Origin: Vulcanisaeta moutnovskia 768-28
GTDB lineage: Archaea; Thermoproteota; Thermoprotei; Thermoproteales; Thermocladiaceae
Direction: 5' to 3'
Length of the DNA: 64,000 bases
NCBI RefSeq assembly: GCF_000190315.1
Contig: NC_015151.1
Location: 806,001-870,000 of the forward strand
The notes under the pieces were generated by a model that was not told the DNA's origin, did no database searches, and saw only the letters and a program-made list of their open reading frames with translations. Of this stretch, positions 38,545 to 47,130 are shown one piece after another. Within the stretch, counting starts at the first letter, position 1. Every line of letters starts with the position of its first letter. The position numbers and the translations under genes are program-made.

Positions 38545-41202
38545 GTGGTTAGTAATAGGACGTTGCAATTAATGTCCAGGCTTTTCACAGCAATTCTTTA
38601 CCTGGCAGTCTCATCAATAGCATTCGTAATGGATTTTCCATTTTATCCATTACCAGTTGCCTTGCTAATAATAGCTGTAACCACGGCATTGGCATACTCA
38701 GGGCATGTTAAGCTTGGCTTTGCAATAATGATAATGCTCCTAATACCTGCCCTACTCTATGTCTATAGATATGCGGCGTTAGGTACCCTACTCCTTATCC
38801 TAATTCTCCTCGTCATGATAAGGGTCTTCGATTGGCTTGGTGTTGGTGTTGGTATACTTGCATGGGAATTCTCAATAATACCTAAAATGCCCATCCCACT
38901 CTACGTACTTTCAGTACCATTAATACTGACCTCACCAAGCCTCACGATAGGTATTACGAGGAGAGTAACTCCATTAAAATCATTAATAACATTCCTCATA
39001 ATCTACATACCAACACTATTACTACTAAATGCTAATAATACCGTAGTTCCCTGGTTCGGCCCCGTGAGTACATACGTATCCCCCCTATCATCACTTACCA
39101 CTAATGCAATAGTAAGTGCTTTGGGCAGCATTAATGTGGGGCTTTACGGACTTGCTCAAGCAATTGATAGGGTATTTACCTGGACCAGCACTTACGTATT
39201 GCCACCGATAATGGCTTTAACGGCATACATCGCGTACGTAATATCAAGCAGATTAAGGTCACATGATAATAAGGTGATTAGGCTCTTTGCGCCAACGATT
39301 GGTACGATGTCCGCCTACGCATTAATGGCATACCTACTATTCTACATGAATCCATACTTTGGGCTTTATCAAGGCATTGATGTTAACACTTTAATTCAGG
39401 GCTTATTACCTGCCCTAGTAATTAGCACAGCCCTATTACCACCAATAATGCACTTCAGGCTTGTTGAGATTAAGTTTGAGGAGGAAGAGAAGCAATCAGT
39501 AATTGCCCTTGAGCGTGGCTATCAACTAATTCTCAATAAGGATGAGCTAAAGTCACTGGCTAGTGAGTGGGATAATGTGGTTGGACTTGAGGATGTTAAG
39601 AGCGAAATAGAGACGTCAGTAATAACACCACTTAGGGATAGTAGATTGTCTCAGAAGTATGGTTTAATGCCGATTCATGGAGTACTGCTCTTTGGTCCTC
39701 CTGGTGTTGGTAAGACAATGCTCGCGAGGGCAATAGCCGGTAAGTTGGGTTGGACAACAATAATAATGAACCTAGGTGAGTTACTTAGTAAATACTATGG
39801 CGAGAGTGAGAATAGGCTTGCTGAGCTCTTCAAAATAGCCAAGAATTATGCACCGTCGGTGATAATAATCGATGAATTTGACGCCATAGGCAAGGCTAGG
39901 ACTAGGTATGTAAGCGATGATGTAACGCCAAGACTACTAAACATACTTCTTAGTGAGATGGATGGGATAACTAAAGGTAATGAGAATATCCTAGTGATTG
40001 GAACAACAAATCAACCAGACCTATTGGATCCGGCGTTGCTTAGGCCTGGTAGATTCGATAAAGTGATCTATGTACCGCCACCTAATGAGGAGACTAGGGC
40101 TAAGATGCTTGAGACTATGTTAAGGGATAAGCCCATTCAAGGTTCTATTGATTATGCAAAACTCGCCAAGTTGTCTGATAGGTTTACTGGTGCGGATATA
40201 ATGAATGTGGTAAGGACTGCAGTTCTCGAGTCGCTTAAGGATGGTAAACCCATAACCCAGGAAAAGCTAGAGGAGATAATTAATAGGTATAAGCCTAGCC
40301 TAACCTACGACTTACTCGAGAAATATGAGGCCTTTAGGCTACAATACAGTAGGTTGAGGACCTTTGGTAAGGCCCAAGTCGGTATTCCAGAGATTACTTG
40401 GGATGACGTTGGCGATCTTGAGGAGGTTAAGGAAGTCATCAATAAGTATATAGTTGCCACAATGCAGAGGAGGGACATACTCGAGAGGTTGGGTATTGAG
40501 CCAATACACGGTATCCTACTCTTTGGTCCTCCTGGTGTTGGTAAGACTCTCGTCGCAAAAGCAACAGCCAATATGCTTAAGGCAAATTTCATAGAACTTA
40601 ATGGAGCCGAGCTGGCTAGGGTTGGGCCTGAGAGAGCTGCTGCAGTGGTTAAGGACGTATTTAATATGGCACGTGATAATACACCTGCCATAATATTCAT
40701 TGATGAGATAGACTCTGTCGCGCCACCTAGGGATTCACCAATAGGTGGCGTCTGGTCTGGCGTTATTTCGCAGTTGCTAACTGAGATGGATGGATTAAGG
40801 GGGTTGAATAATGTCATTGTAATTGCAGCCACAAACAGGCCTTGGTTTGTTGACCCGGCGTTGCTTAGGCCTGGTAGATTCGATAAGGTAATTTACATAC
40901 CACCACCGAATAAGGACGCTAGGCGTGAAATAATAAGGATACACATGAAGAATGCTGAGGTCGAGGAGGGGGTCATTAATTGGGTCGCTGAGGTTACTGA
41001 GGGTTATAGTGGTGCTGATTTAGCTGCGTTGGTCAGGGAGGCTAAGATGAGAGCCTTAGATAGGGTGTTAAGTGGTGATAATAGGGTTAAAATTACGAGG
41101 AGAGATTTCGAGTATGCACTTAGTAAGGTTCATCCATCATTAAATAGGGAATTGCTTAGTCAGTATGAGGATTTTGTGCGTAGGGCTAATTTAATGGTCT
41201 AA
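38545..41202 (+). CDS. Membrane-anchored double-AAA ATPase (Cdc48/VAT-related)
   Basis: 885 residues from GTG 38545. Residues about 10-310 hold roughly eight to nine hydrophobic helices instead of the Cdc48 N-domain. Two AAA modules follow: Walker A at about 384-391 and 661-668 (both GPPGVGKT), Walker B at 440-444 (IIIDE) and 717-721 (FIDEID), sensor and Arg-finger segments TTNQPDLLDPALLRPGRFD and ATNRPWFVDPALLRPGRFD. Both ATPase sites look intact. The second pore region (NGAELARVGPERAAAVVK) differs from the usual Cdc48 sequence. Presumably it extracts or unfolds proteins at the membrane, a function like FtsH or Cdc48-ERAD, but lacks a protease domain. Promoter TTTTTATTTTG near 38526. Confidence 0.88.
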   Translation: MVSNRTLQLMSRLFTAILYLAVSSIAFVMDFPFYPLPVALLIIAVTTALAYSGHVKLGFAIMIMLLIPALLYVYRYAALGTLLLILILLVMIRVFDWLGVGVGILAWEFSIIPKMPIPLYVLSVPLILTSPSLTIGITRRVTPLKSLITFLIIYIPTLLLLNANNTVVPWFGPVSTYVSPLSSLTTNAIVSALGSINVGLYGLAQAIDRVFTWTSTYVLPPIMALTAYIAYVISSRLRSHDNKVIRLFAPTIGTMSAYALMAYLLFYMNPYFGLYQGIDVNTLIQGLLPALVISTALLPPIMHFRLVEIKFEEEEKQSVIALERGYQLILNKDELKSLASEWDNVVGLEDVKSEIETSVITPLRDSRLSQKYGLMPIHGVLLFGPPGVGKTMLARAIAGKLGWTTIIMNLGELLSKYYGESENRLAELFKIAKNYAPSVIIIDEFDAIGKARTRYVSDDVTPRLLNILLSEMDGITKGNENILVIGTTNQPDLLDPALLRPGRFDKVIYVPPPNEETRAKMLETMLRDKPIQGSIDYAKLAKLSDRFTGADIMNVVRTAVLESLKDGKPITQEKLEEIINRYKPSLTYDLLEKYEAFRLQYSRLRTFGKAQVGIPEITWDDVGDLEEVKEVINKYIVATMQRRDILERLGIEPIHGILLFGPPGVGKTLVAKATANMLKANFIELNGAELARVGPERAAAVVKDVFNMARDNTPAIIFIDEIDSVAPPRDSPIGGVWSGVISQLLTEMDGLRGLNNVIVIAATNRPWFVDPALLRPGRFDKVIYIPPPNKDARREIIRIHMKNAEVEEGVINWVAEVTEGYSGADLAALVREAKMRALDRVLSGDNRVKITRRDFEYALSKVHPSLNRELLSQYEDFVRRANLMV

Positions 41203-41273: not shown

Positions 41274-42104
41274 ATGAGTCAAAAACCTGAAGTATTGAAA
41301 AATTTAATTGAGGAAGTAACGAAATTGATAAAGGAGGGATATTCCCTAACGAATATTGTAAAGGAGGTTACTGATGCGATTAATAGGGATGTCGGCTTGA
41401 GCAAGGTAATATTTAATGAGATAAAGGAGTCCATGGTCAAGATAAGCCCAGGCAATGTACCGGTGGGTTTATTCACACAATGTGCCTTAATACCTAGTTA
41501 TTACTTAACGGGTAAGACACCAAGTATTGATTGGGGTGATGCAACTATGCACCTATTGGGTAAGATGATTCATAACCTGGCAATTGTCGAGATTAAGAAT
41601 AGGCTTGGTAATAGATGTATTGAGGGTGTTGAGGTTATGTATACGCATAACGCCTGGACAATGAGAGGTAAACCAGACCTCGATTGTGGTAATTATTACC
41701 TTGAGTTTAAGACTATAATGGGTAGGGTGACGAAGGCTAGGCTATTCCACGACCTAATCCAGGCAGGTTTTTACTCAGCAGCAGGTAATAAAAACACCTA
41801 CGTGCTCTATCTAGTGCTTAGTGATGGTGTATTACGTAACATAGTTCCTATTGAGGTAATACCCGAGGTTGGTTACCCAGTGATTTATGCCTTTAAGCTT
41901 TGGGTGAAGGCTGTGGAGGGTGGGGACATTGGGGCCTTAGTTGCCAAGACAACTTCGTGTAAGGTATGTAGGTTTAGGGATATTTGTATAATGAGGACAA
42001 AGAACCCACATGAAGTTTTGCTTCCAGGTAAGGAGTTGCTTGATAATTACCTTGATTACGTAAAGCATGAGGTTTCAAAGGCTGGAGTTAAGGTGGTTGG
42101 TTAA
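41274..42104 (+). CDS. Cas4-like PD-(D/E)XK nuclease with iron-sulfur cysteines
   Basis: 276 residues. The RecB/Cas4 core is complete: C70 in FTQCALIP, H100, D135 in GKPDLDCG, E144 and K146 in YYLEFKT, Q163 and Y167 in QAGFYSA, then C229, C232 and C238 in SCKVCRFRDIC. The four cysteines are placed as for the 4Fe-4S cluster of Cas4 and AddB-type nucleases. No cas genes or CRISPR repeats are nearby, so it belongs to the solo Cas4-like group and probably works in DNA repair or replication. A helical N-terminal region of about 60 residues precedes the core. The stop overlaps the next gene's ATG by one base (TAATG). Confidence 0.82.
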   Translation: MSQKPEVLKNLIEEVTKLIKEGYSLTNIVKEVTDAINRDVGLSKVIFNEIKESMVKISPGNVPVGLFTQCALIPSYYLTGKTPSIDWGDATMHLLGKMIHNLAIVEIKNRLGNRCIEGVEVMYTHNAWTMRGKPDLDCGNYYLEFKTIMGRVTKARLFHDLIQAGFYSAAGNKNTYVLYLVLSDGVLRNIVPIEVIPEVGYPVIYAFKLWVKAVEGGDIGALVAKTTSCKVCRFRDICIMRTKNPHEVLLPGKELLDNYLDYVKHEVSKAGVKVVG

Positions 42105-43036
42105 TGAGTCTCGATGAAATAATAGACCTGGCGAACTACTTGCTAAATAGGTTGCAGCTTAGGGATTCACATTTTATAACATCAATTGCAAAGTGCTCAT
42201 TATTATCTCTGAGAAGGGATGTTAGTATAATGGATGAAGCATATACTGAGTATTTGCCTAGGGTTTTGTCTGTTTGCGCTACGGAAAAGCACGTGGTTAG
42301 GCTTGAGGATATTGCGCTGGAACTGCCGAGGTTACTTAGGTGCGGTGACTCGTTAATACTGCCAAAGCTTATGTTGCTTAAGGACAATGCTAAGTCCCAC
42401 ATTGTCGAGGCATTACTAATCGCTGCATTATTAAACACTGATGTGCAGCTTCATTATCTATCTAAGAATATAAATGGTGATATTGAGGAGGGCCTATCAA
42501 TAACAATAAAGCCCGAGTGGGGTAAGGAACTACTTAACGTGGTCATTAAGTCATTAAAGAATAAGGAGGTTAGTGTTAAGACCATAAGTTGTAATGTTTG
42601 TCCGTTAAGGGATGTTTGTCCATTTAGTAGTTTAGGGGATAAGGTCGTACTGCCTGGTGAGGTGTTGAGGGTTATTGATGATATTTATAATAAATTGATC
42701 GTGGAATCCACAAGTAATCAGGAAGATCGTAATAAGGAAAAACTAGTACCACCAAGTACATTGGATAAGGAGAGCATTAGGAATTACTTGAGGAGAGTTG
42801 CTGATTGGGCACGTTCTCACGGAAGGACATGGGTTAGCGTTGCAGTTGGTAAGTGCCCAGTGTGCGGTAGGGAGGGTACATTAGTTATTAGGATTATTGG
42901 TAGTAGGGAGAGGGTTCTTTACAGACATAGTTCATCAACATGCACAATAGGTACAATAGACGAGTCCATAGATAAGATAAACATTGATAGGTTTATTGAG
43001 ATTGAACATGAAGAGGTAAGTACAGATACTAAGTAA
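42104..43036 (+). CDS. Inactivated Cas4-like paralogue with C-terminal zinc ribbon
   Basis: 310 residues, starting at the TAATG overlap with the Cas4-like gene. Its middle repeats the end of the upstream protein: ISCNVCPLRDVCPF (C163, C166, C172) against TSCKVCRFRDICIM, both followed by a VLPG segment, and C31 could be the fourth cluster ligand. The nuclease residues D, ExK and QxxxY are not found, so this looks like a catalytically dead copy keeping the cluster. Residues about 245-285 add a zinc ribbon (GKCPVCGREGTLVIRI, later RHSSSTCTIG). I infer a heteromeric complex with the upstream active nuclease, similar in idea to AddB or inactive subunits. Confidence 0.65.
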   Translation: MSLDEIIDLANYLLNRLQLRDSHFITSIAKCSLLSLRRDVSIMDEAYTEYLPRVLSVCATEKHVVRLEDIALELPRLLRCGDSLILPKLMLLKDNAKSHIVEALLIAALLNTDVQLHYLSKNINGDIEEGLSITIKPEWGKELLNVVIKSLKNKEVSVKTISCNVCPLRDVCPFSSLGDKVVLPGEVLRVIDDIYNKLIVESTSNQEDRNKEKLVPPSTLDKESIRNYLRRVADWARSHGRTWVSVAVGKCPVCGREGTLVIRIIGSRERVLYRHSSSTCTIGTIDESIDKINIDRFIEIEHEEVSTDTK

Positions 43037-45936: not shown

Positions 45937-47130
45937 ATGCCAAGGATTTTTAGGAACGAAGCAGCATTAACACCGGAGTATATACCAGGTAAACTGCCTC
46001 ATAGAGAAGAGCAGCTAAAGCAGCTTGAGACGTACTTCAGCGGTTTTCTTGAGGAGCCAGGATCTATGTACCCTAAGGTAGTGCTGATTGGTAGACCCGG
46101 TAGTGGTAAGACAGTGACAAGTAGGAAGTTTGGGAATTACGTAATAAAGTCAAGCAATAGGGTTAGGTATGTTCATGTGTCCTGCTTCCTCAATAGAACA
46201 CTAAGTTCGGTGCTAAAGGATGTTGGTGTTCAATTAAACATTGCAATACCAAAGAGGGGATTCTCAACCGAGGAATTGCTTAAGATGCTCCTGGACATGA
46301 TTAAGGAAAAGGACGCCTACGCCATTGTTGCACTTGATGATGTGTTTCACCTAGTTAATAATAGTGGTCCTCATGCCCTAGGTACGTTAATAAGGCTTGG
46401 TGAGGAATACGTAAGTAGAGGTGATAGGTATAGATTTGGCTTGATCCTCATAAGTCAGGACTTAACTTTTAGAGATCAACTCGATAGAAGCTCACAGAGT
46501 GCGCTTGGTAATGCGGTCATTAAGTTCGAACCATATACCAAGGACCAGATATTTGAGATACTCCTAACAAGGGCTCAGGAGGCTTTGTTAGATGGTGCAT
46601 ATGACGAGGAAATACTTGAGATGATAGCAGATGTGGCGGGCATTGATGAGAACTCTATGGATGATCATAGGGGTGATGCTAGATACGCCATTGATATACT
46701 ATGGAGGGCATCCAAGCTTGCTGAAATGAAAGGATCAGAGAGAATTTTACCTGAACATGTCAGGGAGGCGATAAAGAATACTCTCAGGGGCATTAGGAGT
46801 GATGAATTGAGGATGCTACCACTTCATGAGAAAATATTCCTACTAGCCATTGTTAAGAGCTTAACGAAAAACCCGAATTCTCCATACATACCCTTTGGAT
46901 TGGCTGAGGATGAGTACCAAGTACTTTGTGAACAGTATGGTGAAGAACCGAGAAAGCACACACAATTATGGGAGTACTTAAAGGACTTAAACACGAAGGG
47001 TTTCGTTGAGACTAGGACGTCTAGTAAGGGTATGAGGGGTAGGACAACATTAATATCAATACCATCGGAGCCCTTGGTCACGCTAGAGGAGGAATTAAGA
47101 AAAATAATAGAGGGTGAGTTGGGTACGTGA
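45937..47130 (+). CDS. cdc6: Orc1/Cdc6 replication initiator
   Basis: 397 residues. AAA+ motifs: Walker A VLIGRPGSGKTVTSRKF (about 50-66), Walker B IVALDDVFHL, sensor 1 LILISQDLTF and sensor 2 GDARYAIDILWRA. The C-terminal winged-helix domain includes LPLHEKIFLLAIVKSL and VETRTSSKGMRGRTTLI. It marks replication origins and loads MCM. Archaeal origins usually lie next to this gene; the 80 A/T-rich bases upstream hold no origin-recognition box that I recognise. A winged-helix gene overlaps its end by four bases. Confidence 0.93.
   Translation: MPRIFRNEAALTPEYIPGKLPHREEQLKQLETYFSGFLEEPGSMYPKVVLIGRPGSGKTVTSRKFGNYVIKSSNRVRYVHVSCFLNRTLSSVLKDVGVQLNIAIPKRGFSTEELLKMLLDMIKEKDAYAIVALDDVFHLVNNSGPHALGTLIRLGEEYVSRGDRYRFGLILISQDLTFRDQLDRSSQSALGNAVIKFEPYTKDQIFEILLTRAQEALLDGAYDEEILEMIADVAGIDENSMDDHRGDARYAIDILWRASKLAEMKGSERILPEHVREAIKNTLRGIRSDELRMLPLHEKIFLLAIVKSLTKNPNSPYIPFGLAEDEYQVLCEQYGEEPRKHTQLWEYLKDLNTKGFVETRTSSKGMRGRTTLISIPSEPLVTLEEELRKIIEGELGT

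Follow-up and report, generated by a model that had tools for sequence, protein, structure and literature searches.

The P1-P2 gene pair and its neighbourhood

Two forward-strand open reading frames, here designated P1 and P2, lie within the analysed window, a 64-kb stretch of a Vulcanisaeta genome (G000, contig C1, positions 806001-870000; 0.806-0.870 Mb). The frames share a single base within the sequence TAATG, as the initial annotation had noted and as their coordinates bear out (Table 1). A stop/start overlap is present at 9/9 P1-P2 junctions that are legible in full in Vulcanisaeta, with apparent frameshifts in the draft genomes G016, G017, and G020, and translation of P2 is predicted to be coupled to that of P1 through this overlap. 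Directly 5′ of P1, the TATA-like sequence ATTTAAAGG shows no variation across eight aligned Vulcanisaeta upstream regions, which implies a leaderless bicistronic mRNA; one promoter is thus predicted to serve both genes.

Table 1. Features of the P1-P2 locus and two of its neighbours (positions within the window).
Feature	Position	Strand	Evidence or remark
CDC48-like double AAA+ ATPase gene (885 aa)	38545-41202		Conserved upstream of the pair
Promoter-like element TTAGTAATTTAAAGGG, conserved; TATA box ATTTAAAG ~22-29 bp 5′ of the P1 start codon	41239..41254	+	Alignment of 8 Vulcanisaeta upstream regions
P1 open reading frame (276 aa)	41274-42104	+	Predicted Cas4-family nuclease
P1 residues 1-60, helical N-terminal extension, less conserved part	41274..41453	+	AF2 secondary structure (low confidence); dN/dS
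P1 residues 61-276, predicted Cas4/RecB-type PD-(D/E)XK nuclease domain, including stop codon	41454..42104	+	Alignment, hhalign, PADLOC, fold
TAATG stop/start overlap of P1 and P2	42102..42106	+	Junction sequences; relatives with TGATG or CGATGA
P2 open reading frame (310 aa)	42104-43036	+	Predicted Cas4-fold paralogue with zinc ribbon
P2 residues 1-190, dead Cas4-fold domain; K88 and predicted Fe-S ligand set C31, C163, C166, C172	42104..42673	+	Alignment, model, hhalign
P2 residues 191-222, variable linker, partly disordered in model	42674..42769	+	Alignment, model; dN/dS 0.34
P2 residues 223-302, helix and predicted zinc ribbon (C251, C254, H275, C280), PSV ORF131-like	42770..43009	+	Fold, weak profile, motif
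Orc1/Cdc6 replication initiator gene	45937-47130		2.9 kb downstream of P2; synteny with the pair conserved in Vulcanisaeta

The order of genes is QRPTase, L31e, CDC48-like ATPase, P1, P2, lumazine-synthase-like, GH57, and Orc1/Cdc6, and this neighbourhood is unchanged even in the most divergent Vulcanisaeta species. The neighbours (CDC48-like AAA+, lumazine-synthase-like, GH57, and Orc1/Cdc6) indicate no single pathway. A functional link to the upstream ATPase, in which a hydrophobic N-terminal region replaces the usual N domain, is unsupported: P1 has its own promoter, and in genome G018 the gene immediately 5′ of P1 is TnpB-like. Across the window, cumulative GC skew is highest at ~46-52 kb.

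P1 is a divergent Cas4 with intact catalytic residues

The nuclease domain of P1 contains H100, D135, E144, K146, Q163, and Y167—the catalytic pattern (H, D, ExK, QxxxY) common to Cas4s—together with C70, C229, C232, and C238, which are predicted to ligate an Fe-S cluster. All of these residues are free of variation across 10 aligned Vulcanisaeta sequences. Profile comparison by hhalign against an alignment of 17 archaeal Cas4-like proteins places P1 residues 54-262 in this family (E=4.5e-11), and P1 is also matched by the PADLOC Cas4 model (E=6.8e-6) and by a phage family annotated as CRISPR/Cas associated (1e-4). The NCBIfam cas4 model misses its cut-off (E=0.036), as does Pfam PF01930 (Cas4), and P1 is therefore placed as a divergent member. 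The best fold is likewise a Cas4, SSO0001, at Z=10.0 for a poor AF2 model (mean pLDDT 44), and sequence searches of the PDB returned nothing useful. On this evidence P1 is a divergent solo-Cas4 with predicted nuclease activity.

Its nearest known counterparts are the solo-Cas4 nucleases SSO0001, SSO1391, and Pcal_0546, with which it shares the PD-(D/E)XK core, the GxxxH, D, ExK, and QxxxY elements, four Fe-S cysteines, and a location outside CRISPR loci. P1 differs from these in falling under the PF01930 cut-off, in its 60-residue N-terminal extension, and in the dead paralogue encoded alongside. The similarity of P1 to the rudiviral Cas4-like proteins SIRV2 gp19 and SRV ORF199 is weak (25-31%); these are viral and lack a dead partner, and the SRV gene adjoins a putative Holliday junction helicase according to annotation.

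P2 combines a catalytically dead Cas4-fold core with a zinc ribbon

In the core of P2, the catalytic positions of P1 have been replaced (D135 by L77, E144 by L86, Q163 by E102, and Y167 by I106) and H100 has no equivalent; K146 alone is retained, as the invariant K88. When P2, P1, and Cas4s are aligned jointly, the only invariant columns are C31, K88, C163, C166, and C172 (P2 numbering), and P2 possesses two extra invariant cysteines, C58 and C80. The KTxSCxxCxxRDxC stretch of P1 recurs in P2 with 9/14 residues identical. A Smith-Waterman comparison of the two proteins scores 77, whereas shuffled sequences average 33 (sd 4.8) and 0/1000 of them score as high; most of this pairwise signal comes from the C-terminal KTxSCxxCxxRDxC-LPG, and the score is not significant once the C-terminal region is removed. 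Comparison of genus alignments by hhalign extends the relationship, matching P1 127-252 to P2 69-185 (E=5.5e-6), and P2 matches other Cas4s at E=7.1e-6. In genome searches covering several genomes, the P1 profile retrieves P2 at E ~1e-3 and the P2 core retrieves P1 at E 8e-4 to 9e-3.

A structural model of P2 (pLDDT 69) has the helix and strand order of Cas4. It most closely resembles SSO0001 Cas4 (Z=7.2 over 166 residues), with RecB and Exo5 coming next. By itself, Foldseek found nothing for P2 at E<0.001, and PADLOC gave no match either. A Z score of 7.2, being below 8, is weak alone; taken together with the cysteines and the profiles, it led us to accept the Cas4 fold for P2. Judged by its residues, P2 is excluded as a conventional PD-(D/E)XK nuclease; it is best described as a Cas4-fold paralogue with a four-cysteine set, predicted to hold an Fe-S cluster, and not as a Cas4 nuclease. 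The initial annotation had read P1 as complete in its catalytic and Fe-S residues and P2 as a dead paralogue that lacks the former and repeats the cysteine-rich end of P1 nearly residue by residue. The P1 residues are all found where it had placed them, the loss in P2 proves to extend to the histidine and to spare the lysine, and the reading of P2 as a paralogue is supported by the profile-profile matches, the reciprocal retrieval in genomes, and the structural comparison, which give P2 a Cas4 fold and no different one.

The zinc ribbon that had also been claimed for P2 is present. The C-terminal region (residues 221-310) resembles PSV ORF131 (2x5c) at Z=5.1, with 20% identity over 79 residues and a shared CPxCG pattern, and PF22415 matches it weakly (E=0.044, under the cut-off). 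PSV ORF131 is a stand-alone viral protein, whereas P2 has the ribbon joined to its dead Cas4 core. In a published comparison, the ORF131 zinc ribbon is among those that retrieve SH3-like folds, and the DNA-binding Cren7/Sul7 proteins are derived from zinc ribbons (PMC5906684). The ribbon motif recurs at the head of many unrelated Thermoproteaceae proteins, and the ribbon of P2 is therefore a shuffled module. As an add-on, it is missing from one lineage: in a metagenome-assembled genome (G023; L011:2331-2984), P2 stops at 218 aa and the next gene begins ~96 bp on, although an assembly effect may contribute. The conserved essence of the system would thus be P1 plus the dead P2 core. The many Thermoproteaceae proteins that share the motif (loci L031-L048) are small and often apparently membrane-anchored, with several per genome, and their N terminus is formed by the ribbon as a CPxCGxxG...YxYxxHGxxWxYIG module.

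Distribution, selection, and relatives

P1 and P2 adjoin in 12/12 Vulcanisaeta genomes searched. The initial annotation had named conservation of the pair across Thermoproteales as a check; adjacency holds throughout the genus but does not extend across that order, as among 398 genomes of the phylum no pair was seen outside Vulcanisaeta. Neither gene occurs alone among these genomes except for a distant P1 relative in a sister genus (G014). Since the pair falls under the cut-offs of the standard Cas4 models, similar pairs elsewhere may be missed.

Both proteins are under purifying selection, the dead core included. Median dN/dS in Vulcanisaeta is 0.05 for P1, 0.10 for the dead core of P2, and 0.17 for the ribbon, and P2 evolves at two to three times the rate of P1. 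The value of 0.10 indicates that the dead domain is maintained and is not decaying. Within P1, residues 1-60 stand at 0.11 versus 0.04 for the remainder.

The sister-genus protein, the closest relative of P1 beyond the genus, has 268 aa and 27% identity to P1 and lacks a dead Cas4 partner. It groups with P1 (96/92) in a tree of 34 Cas4-type domains, in which P2 lies on a long branch. A clade of P1 and P2 receives no support but is not rejected either (p-AU 0.09; 0.17 with the G014 relative), while by pairwise similarity P1 and the G014 relative are the nearest to P2 in the compared set. With the long branch and this undecided clade, tandem duplication of P1 within Vulcanisaeta was not retained as an origin for P2. 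A viral origin was also set aside: a pattern search of IMG/VR returned no relative, and rudiviral Cas4 matches were weak only.

The relative in G014 belongs to an apparent operon (L088:13171-16540) that encodes the Cas4-like nuclease, a SWIM-like (CxC-CxH) protein, a 170-aa protein, a HerA-domain ATPase, and a 160-aa protein; these may constitute a nuclease-ATPase system that has no name so far. The nuclease gene appears to have been lost from the sister genome G013 (L140), which retains the other operon genes. A HerA link was rejected for P1 and P2, as the inspected Vulcanisaeta homologues of this ATPase sit elsewhere and without either gene. A role as a substitute for NurA was rejected as well, NurA being found in 25/25 family genomes.

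Proposed mechanism

Pairs of an active PD-(D/E)XK-fold nuclease and a dead paralogue or nuclease-fold partner serving DNA binding or control exist in other systems, namely XPF-ERCC1, Mus81-Eme1, and RecB-RecC. These belong to other subfamilies, XPF having no Fe-S cluster and RecBCD being fused to helicases, and the analogy to P1 and P2 is one of principle only. We consider it likely, from sequence features and gene arrangement, that the two translationally coupled genes encode an active Fe-S nuclease of the solo-Cas4 type (P1) and a dead partner with the same fold and the Fe-S cysteines (P2), which would probably form a heteromer acting on DNA ends. Within such a complex, P1 would cut or trim single-stranded or frayed DNA ends, P2 would offer a non-cutting DNA-binding face that holds or measures the substrate, and the zinc ribbon of P2 might act as an additional module for contacts with DNA or protein. 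Its task would probably be the processing of chromosomal DNA ends or flaps, instead of CRISPR spacer acquisition.

More tentatively, Vulcanisaeta may possess a dedicated non-CRISPR two-subunit Fe-S nuclease in which the inactivated Cas4 paralogue, with an Fe-S cluster of its own, has become an obligate DNA-binding or regulatory subunit; this could be the first active/dead heteromer in the Cas4 family. The searched literature, which lay mostly outside the subscription journals, yielded no account of an active/dead Cas4 pair, and the only statement found there on Vulcanisaeta and Cas4 is a general one on a divergent solo-Cas4.

Alternative explanations

An unlikely alternative is that the pair acts in CRISPR adaptation in trans, trimming prespacers for a distant Cas1-Cas2 with P2 in a Csa1-like role. 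Such a role has precedents: the P. furiosus solo-Cas4 acts in spacer processing, as cited in two reports (PMC9419969, PMC12538437), and type I-A adaptation requires two Cas4-type paralogues encoded together, Cas4 and Csa1 (PMC5704561). The genome also carries cas4-cas1-cas2, at 1.38 Mb. This lies 0.5 Mb away, however, and Cas4 and Csa1 are found in cas operons with cas1/cas2, whereas P1 and P2 stand outside them; neither matches Csa1 (Pfam PF06023) at E<10, and P2 is catalytically dead. P1 does not adjoin cas1/cas2 and so does not class as a CRISPR-associated Cas4 (CAS-Cas4). Neither CRISPR genes nor array-like repeats were found in the 64-kb window, in agreement with the earlier reading that no CRISPR genes lie nearby; the Cas1 and PF01930 Cas4 matches of the genome fall at 1.38 Mb and at 0.56 Mb, the latter a conventional solo-Cas4, and the genome thus already owns a CRISPR cas4 and another solo-Cas4. 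Moreover, a 99% complete genome (G025) retains the pair and has, for Cas1, only a 29-residue sub-threshold match. The presence of the pair without a proper Cas1 weakens an adaptation role, and only weakens it, since a solo-Cas4 does act in adaptation in Pyrococcus.

It is similarly improbable that the two proteins act separately, P1 as an ordinary solo-Cas4 and P2 in an independent structural or DNA-binding capacity, even though the faster evolution and separate zinc ribbon of P2 would suit such a division. The model for it is TP1 of Thermoproteus tenax virus 1, a Cas4 derivative that has lost its catalytic residues and serves in the viral nucleocapsid (PMC4625639). TP1 derives from a split gene, whereas P2 is cellular, keeps the full four-cysteine set, and has a predicted active paralogue as its neighbour. 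Against separate action stand the adjacency of the pair in every Vulcanisaeta genome searched and the rarity of either gene alone in the phylum. A further proposal, that P2 serves as inhibitor or antidote by restraining, as a dead decoy, an otherwise harmful P1 within a module of toxin-antitoxin or defence type, draws on the coupled translation of the pair and on the defence or counter-defence roles suspected for many solo and viral Cas4s (PMC5704561). We regard it as very unlikely: the nuclease gene comes first, the pair occupies a stable syntenic housekeeping neighbourhood that is kept in distant members of the genus, purifying selection is strong and the distribution is not patchy, and P2 is unmatched in PADLOC. 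A heteromer of P1 and P2 remains the reading that we prefer.

Significance and other solo-Cas4 contexts

Many archaea carry solo-Cas4s of unsettled cellular function, and the Vulcanisaeta pair offers a concrete, testable system. The genus keeps an active/dead Cas4 pair under purifying selection besides an ordinary solo-Cas4, which raises the questions of whether the dead partner sets the choice of substrate and whether the predicted Fe-S cluster of P2 serves structure or sensing. The pair would add a further case of paralogue inactivation giving a probable nuclease complex. Another conserved solo-Cas4 context was seen in family f24, in which Cas4-like proteins without the usual WECxYC ending (L081, L082, and L087) adjoin a tRNA-synthetase-like gene; at L082 and L087, a MoxR-like AAA gene also flanks the Cas4-like protein.
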